Source of the DNA: a virus
DNA length: 30,244 nt
Virus record (IMG/VR): IMGVR_UViG_3300043409_000979
Coordinates: 1-30,244 of that record
Direction: 5' to 3' (one strand)
Positions 5,707 through 25,358 of this stretch are shown in pieces (positions within the stretch are counted from its first letter, which is position 1; every line of letters starts with the position of its first letter). The notes under the pieces are model-generated. The model was not told the DNA's origin. It did no database searches and saw only the letters and a list, made by a program, of their open reading frames with translations. Position numbers and translations under genes: made by a program.

Positions 5707-6176
5707 TTGGTTTTCATTTTTAGCCCAGCCTCAAGGATGAGGAGAGCGTCTGCGGTTTTCAGTGTGACTGAAAGTTTTGGATAAAGCGCCTGTGCGCGTC
5801 CTTTAAGGTGAGCCTTCCAGCGGTTCCCGTGCGTTTTCTTGTCACCAAGGCCGAGAACCTGCTGCCATTTCTTGGGCGGCAGATACTCAATCCGGGCCCC
5901 ATAGGCGGCAAGGATGCCTTCAATCCTGCCGTAGTTGCGGAACATGGTTGCCATGCTACTGCCGGACATCTTGCCCGCAAACTTCGGCAGTTCTTCCAGA
6001 AACACTGTAGGTGTGTCTGCGCTGGTCGTGTTGTGCGCAGTGCAAAGGATCATCAGTTGCGTATCCATGTCGTGTAGCGTGCCCGGCATTGGCAGTGCAT
6101 GCACACTCCCGTCGGTGTCGATGTAGGCGATCCCGCCGCCTACGCCTGGGTCGATTGCGATGTAGTTTTGGGTCAT
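5697..6176 (-). CDS. RuvC-like Holliday junction resolvase
   Basis: A 159-residue protein with an RNase H-fold RuvC signature: YIAIDPGVGGGIAY (Asp9), VFLEELP (Glu61/62), and KTADALLILEAGL (Asp143) near the C-terminus. It probably cleaves four-way junctions or branched DNA before packaging. I chose the Met at 6176 because it makes an ATGA overlap with the upstream gene and sits close to the first catalytic strand; the longer reading adds only MGDMG. Length is near that of bacterial RuvC. Confidence 0.85.
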   Translation of the reverse strand: MTQNYIAIDPGVGGGIAYIDTDGSVHALPMPGTLHDMDTQLMILCTAHNTTSADTPTVFLEELPKFAGKMSGSSMATMFRNYGRIEGILAAYGARIEYLPPKKWQQVLGLGDKKTHGNRWKAHLKGRAQALYPKLSVTLKTADALLILEAGLKMKTKCN

Positions 6177-6511
6177 TCCCATATCTCCCAATCAATCGCA
6201 AGCAAGTCTTCTATGGACATGTAAATATCTTCTGTTCCAGATACATAGCCCTCGTCGTCTGTCCATTCTGCCCTACGGATGTAGCTGGCTCCGTTTTTTA
6301 ACTGCTCAAAGGCAAAAAGACATGTGCAGCCTTTCAGATTGCTTTTTCTTCTTGATGGCTTTCCTTCCCAGTCATCTGCAACCAACTCATCCATGCCAAT
6401 TCCAATATCTTGATCGCGGTGAGAAAAAATACCTAGATACCAGGATTTCCTTCGCACCTTCCAACCAGCAGCCAGCTTATCCAGCAGTTCGTTTCTTGGT
6501 ATGTCTTGCAT
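6173..6511 (-). CDS. tandem Tad2/DUF2829-like protein, candidate Thoeris antagonist
   Basis: A 112-residue protein made of two similar halves. Half 1: LAAGWKVRRKSW (13-24) then MDELVADDWE (40-49). Half 2: LKNGASYIRRAEW (71-83) then MSIEDLLAIDWEI (98-110). Each half has the DUF2829 signature of an L..G..(V/I)RR..W start and an (D/E)LLA.DWE end, with 24-25 residues between the two key tryptophans. DUF2829 includes Tad2, which sequesters Thoeris signalling nucleotides. The separation within each half is shorter than the single long insert of classic Tad2, so binding is uncertain. The gene is AT-richer than its neighbours. It overlaps the resolvase by ATGA. Confidence 0.65.
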   Translation of the reverse strand: MQDIPRNELLDKLAAGWKVRRKSWYLGIFSHRDQDIGIGMDELVADDWEGKPSRRKSNLKGCTCLFAFEQLKNGASYIRRAEWTDDEGYVSGTEDIYMSIEDLLAIDWEIWE

Positions 6512-8857: not shown

Positions 8858-8884
8858 TTGGGTTTTTTGGTTTGTTGTCTCACT

Positions 8885-8934
8885 CTGACGGCCTCGTCAG
8901 CACCCGCCTTACGGGTGGACGCCCCCTCGGGCGT
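8885..8934. repeat. three abutting perfect hairpins
   Basis: On the plus strand: CTGACG-GCCT-CGTCAG (8885-8900), CACCCG-CCTTA-CGGGTG (8901-8917) and ACGCCC-CCTC-GGGCGT (8919-8934). Each has a perfect 6-bp stem and a 4-5 base loop, and they are separated by zero and one base. This occupies most of an 83-base gap. No long T-run follows on the minus strand (three T follow on the plus strand), so ordinary leftward termination is not supported. It may be an mRNA-stabilising structure, a protein-binding site or a small structured RNA. Confidence 0.6.
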
Positions 8935-8940
8935 TTCGGC

Positions 8941-9120
8941 CTAGGCTTTGCGGATGCTATAATCAATTCCTTCCAAGCCACCGTTTTCAATAAGGTGCTG
9001 GCGAGCCAACTTCTTTGCTTCCTCAGCAGAGTTGGCAACCACAGTGAATGTGCCGCTGCCGGAATAAGCAGAGTAGCGGCAGGAGTAGGAGCAGATGAAG
9101 GATGCGGTGTTTGTTGTCAT
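8941..9120 (-). CDS. small hypothetical protein, probably from leaderless mRNA
   Basis: A 59-residue ORF starting MTTNTASFICSYSCRYSAYS, then FTVVANSAEEAKKLARQHL and ending SIRKA. The middle looks like the beta-strand and helix of small phage proteins with an AxSAEEAxxLA motif. No Shine-Dalgarno sequence is present. Instead a TAAGAT box lies seven bases before the ATG, which suggests transcription starts at the start codon. The gene ends seven bases before the hairpin cluster. Confidence 0.65.
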   Translation of the reverse strand: MTTNTASFICSYSCRYSAYSGSGTFTVVANSAEEAKKLARQHLIENGGLEGIDYSIRKA

Positions 9121-9484: not shown

Positions 9485-9745
9485 TTAAGTGCTTGAGATA
9501 CAACTGGATCCAGTCTGTGCAGGCTGAATGCGGTTGATCTCACGCTCGATGTACCAGATCGCTTTGCGCAAATCCTGCACGGCGTCGCCTTTGTTGCCTG
9601 CCCTCCATAAGTATTTGATGGCGTTGCCGATGCAAAAATTAAAGTGCTCGGCCACTTGGATGCACTCCACGCCCGATGGGTGAGAAGTGTAGTGCTGCGG
9701 ATGGTTTACCGCTGACCATTCAGCGTGATGTTCGTGTGGACTCAT
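9485..9745 (-). CDS. DUF3310 protein
   Basis: An 86-residue protein with the DUF3310 pattern NHPQHYTSHPSGVECIQVAE followed by FCIGNAIKYLWRAGNKG and a C-terminal DLRKAIWYIEREI helix. Members are common in phages, often annotated as nucleotide kinase-like, but the fold is small and no kinase motif is visible here. The start at 9745 shares ATGA with the DpdA-like gene stop. The family call is firm; the function is not known. Confidence 0.85.
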   Translation of the reverse strand: MSPHEHHAEWSAVNHPQHYTSHPSGVECIQVAEHFNFCIGNAIKYLWRAGNKGDAVQDLRKAIWYIEREINRIQPAQTGSSCISST

Positions 9746-10419
9746 AAAAACGTAAGTTGCTGTTTGTCTGGTTGTTTGCAAACGTAATCGGAAAGCATCG
9801 ACTGCACGGGAATTGGGGTTTGACGCGCCCAAAGTTCCAGCCCTCTGGTTTGCGTCCTATCGCCTCGGTTCCAGCCAGTGCCGTCACAAGACTCAACTCC
9901 GAGCTGGTCCAAATAAGCCAGTTTTTGCGGAGAGTTGACGCGCAAGACGTGTACGCGCGGAAATGATTTTGCCCACATTTCAACGGTCGCCCACTTCCAC
10001 TCCGTTGTTCCTCCCACGCAAATCACATCTGGATTGATGTCTTTCGCCTGCGCAACGCTCATTCCATCTTGCACTGCCAGAGCTTTTGCAAACGGCACTT
10101 CCTTCTTGAACTGATACCAACGCTCAATGGTGCGAGCACCACAGCCGATCCAATCTGGAACGATTGCCCACCGTGGTTGTTGAGCCTGTGCCTGTGCCCA
10201 GCGGATCATTTTGCGCCACGCCTCCACGTCCCACAGATCCTCGCGCCACACGTTGTCGTCCTGATCCCACGCGGAAAAAGCACCGTTGTCGAGTGCATAC
10301 GGAAACCACGGCCACGGACCACGTTGCGCGCCAGGTGAAAACAAATGCCCAATGCGCCCCGTCTCTCTAGCAATACAGTGCCAAAACCATCCTGTGGCGT
10401 TTGCGGGCATGACAATCAT
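9742..10419 (-). CDS. dpdA: DpdA-like 7-deazaguanine DNA transglycosylase
   Basis: A 225-residue TGT-like protein with the phage DpdA motif set: YALDNGAFSAW (41-51), AIVPDW (85-90), LAVQDGM (114-120), VGGTTEWKW (135-143), VHVLRVN (156-162) and SCDGTGW (177-183). DpdA enzymes replace guanine in DNA with 7-deazaguanines such as preQ0 or derivatives, protecting phage DNA from restriction. No folE, queD, queE or queC gene is present here, so the substrate would come from the host or from genes outside the window. The first Met (10419) sits six bases after the -10 box, implying a leaderless message; Met4 is the alternative start. Substrate and target (DNA versus tRNA) are inferred. Confidence 0.8.
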   Translation of the reverse strand: MIVMPANATGWFWHCIARETGRIGHLFSPGAQRGPWPWFPYALDNGAFSAWDQDDNVWREDLWDVEAWRKMIRWAQAQAQQPRWAIVPDWIGCGARTIERWYQFKKEVPFAKALAVQDGMSVAQAKDINPDVICVGGTTEWKWATVEMWAKSFPRVHVLRVNSPQKLAYLDQLGVESCDGTGWNRGDRTQTRGLELWARQTPIPVQSMLSDYVCKQPDKQQLTFL

Positions 10420-10425
10420 CCCCCC

Positions 10426-10453
10426 ATCCTAGCCAAGCCCGCTTGGTTGTCAA
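10426..10453 (-). promoter_or_regulatory. sigma70-type early promoter with palindromic spacer
   Basis: The minus strand has a perfect -35 TTGACA (10448-10453), a 16-base spacer and the -10 TAGGAT (10426-10431). The spacer is almost filled by the perfect palindrome CCAAGC-GG-GCTTGG (10433-10446), a likely operator. The start codon of the DpdA-like gene follows six bases after the -10, so the transcript should be leaderless or nearly so. This is the natural start of the leftward early operon. Confidence 0.65.
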
Positions 10454-10566: not shown

Positions 10567-11169
10567 CTACTCCCCAGCCGGAATTAGTCCACCTTGGAAT
10601 AACTCGGCCTCCTCTTGCCTCCTGCGCCTAAGTCCCTTGCTGTTAGGCCACAGCCGCACCATCTCGCGGAACTGGTTGGGAATCTCTTTGAGATTGCCCG
10701 TTTTGAGCAGCGCCTGGATGTTTGCCATCTCCCGCCTGCGCTCGCCTGTCAGGCTTGCGCCACGATTAAACACCAAGCTAACCAGCGCCGCAGTGCAGTC
10801 CCCGGGCAGCTCCTCTGCCTGCGGGTAGATTCTAAGCGTCCGCAGATACCAGGTCGGCAGCGTCGTCGCCTCAAATACGGCCAGCGCCGCCGCCCACGGG
10901 ATCGTAAGGTGGCGGACGTAGGGCAACACCGTCTGCGCAGCCTCGCCAGTCCTGCCAGAGACGCCGACAAGCGCGGCCAGCGTCGAGGCTGGCAAGTGCG
11001 GCGCCCACGCCCTAGTTGTCTCGGTCGCGGGAGTCATGCCGAGATCCCAGCCGATGCCGATGGTAACGCCGCTGCTCTCACCAGGCCATTCTGGGTTAGG
11101 GTCGTACTCGGCCTGCCCGCCAGTCTCCCAAGCAATGATTGATTTGATGCCGCGTGCACTAAGATTCAT
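10567..11169 (-). CDS. endolysin, muramidase-like
   Basis: A 200-residue protein. N-terminal AWETGG with Glu15 as the likely catalytic residue, then SGVTIGIGWDLG (33-44), resembles phage lysozymes of the GH24/pesticin-like type. The C-terminal half has SLVFNRGASL and an IPNQFREMVRLW segment, as in related endolysins. It degrades peptidoglycan at the end of infection. The Met at 11169 has an excellent GAGGAGG upstream. The start overlaps the previous gene by 11 bases. No signal peptide is visible, so export depends on the holin. Confidence 0.8.
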   Translation of the reverse strand: MNLSARGIKSIIAWETGGQAEYDPNPEWPGESSGVTIGIGWDLGMTPATETTRAWAPHLPASTLAALVGVSGRTGEAAQTVLPYVRHLTIPWAAALAVFEATTLPTWYLRTLRIYPQAEELPGDCTAALVSLVFNRGASLTGERRREMANIQALLKTGNLKEIPNQFREMVRLWPNSKGLRRRRQEEAELFQGGLIPAGE

Positions 11170-11383
11170 CTTCGTCGTCCTCCTCAATTAGTTCGGCTTC
11201 CGTCGGGTGCTCGGACCAGCGCATCGCCTGGTACATCCGTGCGTAAAGGCTGCCACTGCCCGCCTCAAAAGTCTGGTAAGTGTCTGAGTCTGAGTCGTGA
11301 GCCAGTATCTGCACGCAATCAAAATGCTCGCCTAGGTCAGCGGCCACGCGTTTTAGGTGCGACTGTTTCTCGTCGATTGTCAT
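11159..11383 (-). CDS. small acidic protein in lysis cassette
   Basis: A 74-residue protein starting MTIDEKQSHLKRVAADLGEH and ending in a run of acidic residues (EEDDEDES). The predicted fold is alpha/beta with a central FDCVQILA strand. Coupled to the small membrane gene upstream by ATGA. Its acidic tail-coding DNA supplies the GAGGAGG that serves the endolysin start. Function unknown. Confidence 0.65.
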   Translation of the reverse strand: MTIDEKQSHLKRVAADLGEHFDCVQILAHDSDSDTYQTFEAGSGSLYARMYQAMRWSEHPTEAELIEEDDEDES

Positions 11384-24192: not shown

Positions 24193-24410
24193 TACAAAAG
24201 CGGTTCAGCCTTGCGCCGAGCAACAGGCTTGGGAGCCTGTAGGATGCCCTTGTTGAGCTTTGATCCATTAGGCATAGGGTTGCACACCAGATAGACGCGC
24301 CCAGGGCTATTGTGAGCCTTGTAAAACTTACGGGCTTCGTCGGGAGAGCCCGTGGAAAGGATTACCTGCGGGCCTGCACCGAGGTCTTCGAGAACGAGAG
24401 AGATTTTCAT
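24192..24410 (-). CDS. small protein after the capsid gene
   Basis: A 72-residue protein starting MKISLVLEDLGAGPQVILST, with EARKFYKAH and the ending KPVARRKAEPLL. It begins only 11 bases after the T-run of the terminator downstream of the capsid gene. Small proteins at this position in other phages include decoration or joining factors, but no family is recognised here. Confidence 0.6.
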   Translation of the reverse strand: MKISLVLEDLGAGPQVILSTGSPDEARKFYKAHNSPGRVYLVCNPMPNGSKLNKGILQAPKPVARRKAEPLL

Positions 24411-24421
24411 GGGATAATCGG

Positions 24422-24458
24422 AAAAAAGCCGGAGCCCCCCGTGAGGGGAACCCCGGCT
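24422..24458 (-). terminator. intrinsic terminator after the capsid gene
   Basis: The minus strand has an AGCCGG...CCGGCT outer stem (24453-24458 pairs with 24427-24432) with an inner CCCC/GGGG stem, followed by six T (24422-24427). The next gene starts only 11 bases beyond the T-run, so there is no space for a separate promoter. This would make the capsid message the shortest and strongest in the late operon, with read-through supplying the joiners. Confidence 0.85.
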
Positions 24459-24473
24459 CTCAAGTTGTTAGAC

Positions 24474-25358
24474 TTAGGCGGGAGTGACGATGCGGACGCC
24501 CATTCCGGTTCCCTTTGCAACGCCCCAAATACAGGAGACGTTGATGCAAGTCTGCCCTAATTCACGGTTATAGTAGGCCCGAAAAGTTAGGGGGAGCCCG
24601 AGGTCAGGCACCACAACTTCGGCAATTTCAATCGAATCCTGCAAAGCGGCTTCGGGATTAACGCGGCGAGCGGCCATGATGAGCGCGCTGGAATGCAACG
24701 CAAAGCCTGCCAGCGCTTCGCCGTTTACATCGCACAAATCGCTCTCGTAGATGTCAAAGCCCGAAACACGGGGCACGGTGCCGTCAGCCTTGAAAGGCGT
24801 GATGCCGGGAATTTCAGCAGAGATAAATGTCTTGGAGATCGCGCCGTAATAGGCGGGATTCATAATAACGCTGCGGCTCATCTTTGGAGCCTTGAGCGTC
24901 TGCGTCAGCGTCACGCCGAGGTCAATCACGTCCTCGCGGTCAAAGTTAGCAGCGGAGGAGGACAAGGGAGTCTGCGCAAAGTTCGCAGCGGTCACCAAAT
25001 TCCAAAGCTGTCCAAACATGTCAGCTCCCAATGCCTGAATCATCGGAGCCAGAAACAGGTTGCGGAAGTTAATCGAAGACTGAAGGACTTGAATGTCCGT
25101 GAAGCCCAGCGTTACGCCGCGATGCTGGTCGAGCGAGATCGTGCGAGCAGTCGTGTCACCGGCGACAGGAGCGTACCCTTCGGAAGTGATGTCTACAACG
25201 GACGGGACCGTAGCAAAGCGAGTTGTTACGGAAGACCCTGCCGATGCAATGTCGGTAGAAAAGTCCGTTGTAATGCCCCGGAGGGGAGCAAACGCGTTGG
25301 TAAGGTAGGCCAATGAAGCCTGTGAAATTTGGCTGAGGAAAACGCCATTGAGGGCCAT
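24474..25358 (-). CDS. major capsid protein
   Basis: A 294-residue protein starting MALNGVFLSQISQASLAYLT. It has HK97-fold features: a central FTDIQVLQSSINFRNLF segment, an alpha-helix followed by DREDVIDLGVTLTQTLKAPK and the PRVSGFDIYESDLC and FALHSSALIMAAR strands typical of P-domain/A-domain elements. It lies after scaffold and protease genes and is followed by its own terminator, as expected for a highly expressed capsid protein. No N-terminal delta domain is fused to it. Specific subfamily not assigned. Confidence 0.8.
   Translation of the reverse strand: MALNGVFLSQISQASLAYLTNAFAPLRGITTDFSTDIASAGSSVTTRFATVPSVVDITSEGYAPVAGDTTARTISLDQHRGVTLGFTDIQVLQSSINFRNLFLAPMIQALGADMFGQLWNLVTAANFAQTPLSSSAANFDREDVIDLGVTLTQTLKAPKMSRSVIMNPAYYGAISKTFISAEIPGITPFKADGTVPRVSGFDIYESDLCDVNGEALAGFALHSSALIMAARRVNPEAALQDSIEIAEVVVPDLGLPLTFRAYYNRELGQTCINVSCIWGVAKGTGMGVRIVTPA

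Follow-up and report, generated by a model that had tools for sequence, protein, structure and literature searches.

A compact DpdA-like gene without preQ0 synthesis genes in a viral record, and its relatives within preQ0 operons

DpdA-only phages, in which dpdA is found without preQ0 gene homologues, are the largest group in the survey of Hutinet 2019, where 76 of them are listed and host supply of the base was suggested (PMC6884629). It was shown that the DpdA of phage 9g alone puts preQ0 from the E. coli pool into plasmid DNA (PMC6884629). Two DpdA-only phages were assayed; the modification was not found in Mycobacterium phage Orion, and Salmonella phage 7-11 contained 50 dADG per 10^6 nucleotides (PMC6884629). 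Mycobacterium makes no preQ0 (PMC6884629). The same survey asked whether singleton DpdAs have diverged in function and described their modification as not predictable (PMC6884629). Since DpdA-only phages are a published class, an orphan dpdA is not in itself new.

In this paper we looked at a dpdA-like gene in a stretch of viral DNA. The window, meaning the whole stretch that was analyzed, covers one IMG/VR record in full (30,244 bases); it is linear and probably incomplete as a genome, with TerL cut by its right end, and our statements of absence are therefore limited to this fragment. The gene and its surroundings are:

9742..10419, minus strand: predicted compact DpdA-like 7-deazaguanine transglycosylase (P0001), 225 amino acids, assigned by ORF, PHROG, fold and motifs
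9485..9745, minus strand: DUF3310 protein, its start overlapping the dpdA stop as ATGA
10567..11187, minus strand: lysozyme-like endolysin gene just upstream of dpdA
10426..10453, minus strand: TTGACA-16-TAGGAT, a promoter-like site preceding dpdA, at chance level

The open reading frame starts with ATG at 10419 and stops with TGA ending at 9742, giving 225 codons on the minus strand, and the plus strand of the same interval is interrupted by stops. Comparison with the genes of L002 and L003 (94 and 93% identical) gave dS of 0.49-0.50 and dN of 0.028-0.035 by the Nei-Gojobori method, a dN/dS of ~0.06 that indicates strong purifying selection. Relatives are encoded in 237-257 IMG/VR stretches, and these, together with differences that are mostly synonymous, show that dpdA is a selected protein and not a chance frame; the 225-residue frame of the first-pass annotation is thus real, on the minus strand. 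That annotation also had the gene leading an early operon. It is indeed the first gene after the lysis genes, but it lies on the late-gene strand and the promoter-like site in front of it is at chance level (one found, 1.1 expected). A hammerhead type II ribozyme is found ~0.8 kb downstream of dpdA (8883-8941, minus strand; 40 bits, Rfam gathering cut-off 37), and a weak Tad2-like (Thoeris anti-defence 2) match lies at 6173-6511 on the minus strand (23.8 bits, below the cut-off of 25).

The window protein has its superfamily and co-linear active-site motifs in common with phage DpdA (9g, CAjan, Rosebush; phrog_887/phrog_7068). Like it, 9g DpdA lacks the CxCxxC zinc motif, and both families can sit in preQ0 operons. 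Yet 9g DpdA is a 317 amino acid protein with a C-terminal region, whereas the window protein lacks this region, belongs to phrog_15826 and matches the DpdA PHROG weakly. Salmonella phage 7-11 also has an orphan dpdA without preQ0 genes and a compact product (234 amino acids), but this is a clear phrog_887 member (E 7e-74) and the window protein belongs to a separate subfamily. Some actinophage members of the compact family are already annotated as DpdA-like; the SEA-PHAGES 'DpdA-like tRNA-guanine transglycosylase' of Phegasus, Majeke and relatives is a 203 amino acid PHROG 15826 protein as well, but it is distant from the window protein (31% identical) and its phages infect Mycobacterium. TGT (PF01702) shares the barrel and the catalytic residues, whereas the window protein has neither a PF01702 match nor the zinc motif and is ~150 residues shorter. 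In Foldseek the fold is also common to the bacterial DpdA of the dpd island (7ui4) and to Cap10 of type IV CBASS (9ntn), but with 413 and 326 residues these proteins are larger, and the multi-gene defence systems to which they belong are not seen in the window; no CdnD/Cap9 partner gene was found among those window genes that were scanned with Pfam. Neither an orphan dpdA nor a compact product is without precedent, and the window gene is a known kind of orphan, in a DpdA variant that is compact and poorly annotated.

As a single sequence, the window protein matched phrog_15826, annotated as 'unknown function', with E 4e-22; its match to phrog_887 (queuine tRNA-ribosyltransferase) is weak (E 1.4e-4) and covers residues 42-104 only. 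All of 15 diverse relatives matched phrog_15826 and 14 of the 15 matched phrog_887, weakly; phrog_15826 is the better-fitting family. Sequence searches of Pfam, NCBIfam and PDB with the window protein alone gave nothing useful, and PF01702 was matched neither by the window protein at E 10 nor by the 15 relatives at E 1. Comparison by hhalign against single sequences was too weak, but profile against profile it gave a usable result, a match of 95.5% (E 1.4e-8, one comparison) between 28 compact proteins and 10 phage DpdAs.

The AlphaFold model of the window protein, built with 44 sequences, has a pLDDT of 91.3 and a pTM of 0.88. The best 50 rows of its VIA-align search are all TGTs (Z 12.0-12.6, 187-197 residues, rmsd 3.2-3.9) and a TGT-type TIM barrel is predicted (Z 12.5), the TGT-like part being residues 1 to ~203. 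Foldseek matches of the model were Cap10, TGTs and the bacterial DpdA 7ui4, with Cap10-CdnD (9ntn) as the top match, tied with TGTs. The CxCxxC zinc-site motif is absent from the sequence. The weak phrog_887 match (E about 1e-4), the profile match to phage DpdA and the modelled fold support a DpdA/TGT-type enzyme and with it the label DpdA-like.

Conservation was counted over 145 relatives, none of them identical, with identities reaching down to roughly 26-30%. P88, D89, Q117, G136, G137, K142, H157, D179 and G180 are unchanged in all 145. The codons of the predicted active site are:

10288..10290, minus strand: D44, DNGAF motif, putative counterpart of the phage DpdA DSGAF aspartate; D in 143 of 145
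10153..10155, minus strand: D89, VPD motif, predicted base recognition; D in 145 of 145
10069..10071, minus strand: Q117, AVQDG; Q in 145 of 145
10009..10014, minus strand: G136-G137, VGGTTEWK, putative GG base-binding loop; invariant in 145
9949..9951, minus strand: H157; invariant in 145 relatives
9883..9885, minus strand: D179, ESCDGTGW, putative counterpart of the 9g DpdA SCDSSSW nucleophile; D in 145 of 145

Direct alignment to 9g DpdA covers D44, D179 and the GG loop, with LDNGAF/LDSGAF and SCDGTGW/SCDSSSW co-linear. The conserved residues make up the TGT/DpdA active-site set, with two catalytic aspartates, a base-recognition Asp and Gln, and the GG loop. We take D44, D89 and Q117 to be of the D102, D156 and Q203 type of TGT (Zymomonas numbering). 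H157 is likely the counterpart of H196 of phage 9g, which is conserved in DpdA and missing from DpdA2 (PMC6884629), and its invariance probably speaks against membership in DpdA2, as judged from the published description of the latter. Loss of both catalytic aspartates had been named beforehand as a finding against a DpdA; D44 and D179 are instead retained. The gene is real and conserved, and its DpdA-type product is apparently active.

In the 30,244-base record the Pfam models of QueC, QueD, FolE and FolE2 found no match, and tblastn, the only search made for it, found no QueE; the earlier statement that 7-deazaguanine synthesis genes are missing nearby is borne out for this record. DpdA-only phages are defined by dpdA in a genome that has no homologues of preQ0 or G+ synthesis; the window shows none in 30 kb of a probably incomplete record. 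Relatives with 39-45 kb of sequence also have no match to the Pfam QueC, QueD, FolE and FolE2 models, and the ~29 nearest tree neighbours have no preQ0 genes within the sequence examined. Because of these, the orphan state looks like a trait of the clade and not a gap of the fragment, among records that are not certified complete. Weak partial matches to the QueC model in four records were not counted as QueC and are probably PAPS-reductase-like proteins.

Genetic linkage to preQ0 synthesis, absent in the window, is present in the wider compact family. By tblastn for QueC, QueD, QueE, FolE and FolE2 in 173 non-redundant compact-dpdA loci, at least one preQ0 gene was found in 26, with 53 matches that are all on the same strand as dpdA and within 3 kb of it; 860 kb was searched within this distance, and the farther flank held none in 784 kb. 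The 26 loci are not all independent and represent about ten different gene orders, among them:

L066, L067, L069, L071: dpdA-queC-queD-queE-folE2, complete set, dpdA overlapping queC; dpdA ~53-56% identical to the window protein
L123: queD-dpdA-queE-folE-queC, complete set
L080: dpdA-queD-queE-folE, near-complete set
L189: queD-queC-dpdA, near-complete set
L082: queC-dpdA, 58% identical to the window protein

The last is the closest relative linked to preQ0 genes, and the window's own clade has no such linkage. QueC is the sole preQ0 gene detected in L082 and L172. The Pfam QueC model confirmed the tblastn calls and, in whole records, scored above its cut-off in 5 of 40 and in 8 of 47; QueD was present in 6 of 40 records, and FolE2 in 5. 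Those QueC-type neighbours that were tested gave good matches to the Pfam QueC model. The small size had earlier been read as a minimal catalytic version. The predicted protein is indeed a TIM barrel only, but its size is not unique. Nor is it obviously degenerate, as related phages have this compact protein beside complete preQ0 operons and no other transglycosylase was found there. A DUF4406/nucleoside deoxyribosyltransferase-like protein, named by eye, lies just upstream of dpdA at L045:5554-6000 and in ~20 related loci of one phage lineage; this neighbour and a DNA cytosine methyltransferase are recurrent, which looks like shared phage lineage, and they were not taken as partners.

Another gene lies directly 3' of dpdA in 11 loci, usually with a 4-nt overlap, and encodes a protein of ~80 amino acids that belongs to phrog_37496, annotated as 'unknown function':

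L157:6636-6878, L172:6609-6851, L072:10708-10950: 80 amino acid phrog_37496 protein
L094, L096, L141, L149, L173, L175, L182, L191: the same protein in further loci

Its invariant residues are C12-P, D19, V33-E34 and Q49-E50. QueF-Like was first guessed from the spacing of a Cys and an Asp seven residues on, and profile and structure searches came after. With E 0.002, archaeosine synthase QueF-Like is the best PDB match of the phrog_37496 profile. The protein was modelled as a T-fold (pLDDT 92.5), and all 13 Foldseek matches of this model at E <= 0.001 are QueF-Like. By profile and model, the protein matches archaeosine synthase QueF-Like in predicted fold and in its catalytic Cys, Asp and Glu. 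The window has no gene for this mini QueF-Like protein. In L092, L093, L097-L099 and L103, the small genes next to the plasmid and phage relatives were checked and do not encode it either.

Based on these data we suggest that the window protein is a minimal, TIM-barrel-only enzyme of the TGT/DpdA superfamily that would carry out base exchange. By analogy with these enzymes, D179 would act as the aspartate nucleophile and, with D44, cut selected guanines at their glycosidic bond; D89, Q117 and the GG loop would hold the free 7-deazaguanine base that is inserted instead. The substrate would most likely be DNA, not tRNA, and the phage's own, again by analogy. The base would be preQ0 (or preQ1), drawn from the host queuosine pathway because the phage and its nearest kin have no preQ0 genes, and the expected benefit would be resistance to host restriction enzymes. 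The supply of preQ0/preQ1 by the host, which the first-pass annotation had considered, is plausible: among the bacterial genomes that carry a relative, QueC is present in 7 of 8 and TGT in 8 of 8, so that host preQ0 would be generally available to such phages. The relatives inside preQ0 biosynthesis operons also support the reading of the window enzyme as a 7-deazaguanine transglycosylase. We consider it probable that this compact enzyme inserts host-made preQ0 (or preQ1) into phage DNA.

One other option is that the phage makes its own preQ0 from genes in the missing part of the genome, as preQ0 operons do contain relatives of the enzyme and the record is linear, 30 kb long and cut through TerL. 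Yet the linked genes are always within 3 kb of dpdA and this stretch is present in the window without them; the 39-45 kb relatives and the ~29 tree neighbours lack them as well in the sequence examined, which makes this option distinctly unlikely. Somewhat less so, but still unlikely, is that the orphan protein has drifted to another use, be it with another base, in regulation or in binding, or that it is in effect idle, as in mycobacteriophage Orion. Orion DNA has no 7-deazaguanine, that of 7-11 only a trace, and functional divergence of singleton DpdAs was raised before (PMC6884629). However, the Orion case is no test of the enzyme because its host makes no preQ0, and the active-site residues kept (near-)invariantly, together with a dN/dS of ~0.06, argue that a catalytic role is probably kept.

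A TGT that acts on tRNA and alters host or phage tRNA instead of DNA would fit the fold, which matches tRNA TGTs best. Against this stand the missing CxCxxC motif, the ~150 residues by which the protein is shorter than TGT, the hhalign match of 95.5% to phage DpdA versus 1% to E. coli TGT (the latter as a single sequence) and the full TGT that the hosts examined already encode, and we regard such a function as very improbable. Protein deazaguanylation, as by Cap10 of type IV CBASS, has in its favor the top Foldseek rank of Cap10-CdnD, tied with TGTs, and the loci L082 and L172 with QueC alone. But in other relatives the pathway to free preQ0 is complete, or dpdA is accompanied by a QueF-Like protein whose step comes after preQ0. 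The good Pfam QueC matches of the QueC-type neighbours tested also speak against it, and the window genes that were scanned with Pfam included no recognisable CBASS gene; of this role there is hardly a chance.

Turning from these alternatives to the insertion of 7-deazaguanine into DNA, we suggest that PHROG 15826 and its kin may be a distinct, barrel-only class of phage DNA 7-deazaguanine transglycosylases beside DpdA and DpdA2. The class (200-240 amino acids; many phages, prophages and Pseudomonas plasmids) would work as a plug-in module: alone on host preQ0 as in the window clade, together with a preQ0 operon that is partial or complete, or in a pair with the 80 amino acid mini QueF-Like protein that would turn preQ0 into archaeosine or preQ1. 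For this wider proposal the chances seem to us evenly divided. In the literature, of which our coverage was partial, we found no description of PHROG 15826 as a compact transglycosylase subfamily with genetic linkage to preQ0 operons and to a mini QueF-Like partner. The same compact family occurs with no, some or all preQ0 genes, and host dependence therefore looks like a variable trait and not a loss of function. These predictions give a role to two PHROGs annotated as unknown function, 15826 and 37496, and make the window protein a candidate for a very small enzyme that could write 7-deazaguanine into DNA. The linkage gives a concrete, testable answer to the singleton-DpdA question of the 2019 survey (PMC6884629).

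The dpdA genes are up to 94% identical between loci that have few other genes in common, and dpdA therefore appears to travel between phages. The best phage match of the window TerL is 25% identical, to Verrucomicrobia phage P8625, a weak pointer to the host. A second seed brought in more distant relatives, and such relatives also occur in bacteria, among them Verrucomicrobia, Planctomycetota, Armatimonadetes and cyanobacteria. The genome of Verrucomicrobia bacterium LW23 encodes one TGT and two QueC and has relatives in two contigs (L084, L085). The same 57% match as in these contigs is seen in L068, a viral record of 37 kb in which dpdA lies at the extreme end. Relatives that are ~30% identical are found on 167 plasmid records, 146 of them from Pseudomonas. 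L092 and L093 are the Pseudomonas plasmids pPME5 and R716, the plasmid relatives are annotated as hypothetical, and in pPME5 a PAPS-reductase-like gene lies close to the dpdA relative. A short second DpdA-like protein near a full-length DpdA and preQ0 genes is seen in Vibrio phage R29Z (L103:4767-5351), and Escherichia phage SHIN8 has the same arrangement near 24407-24736 of its record.
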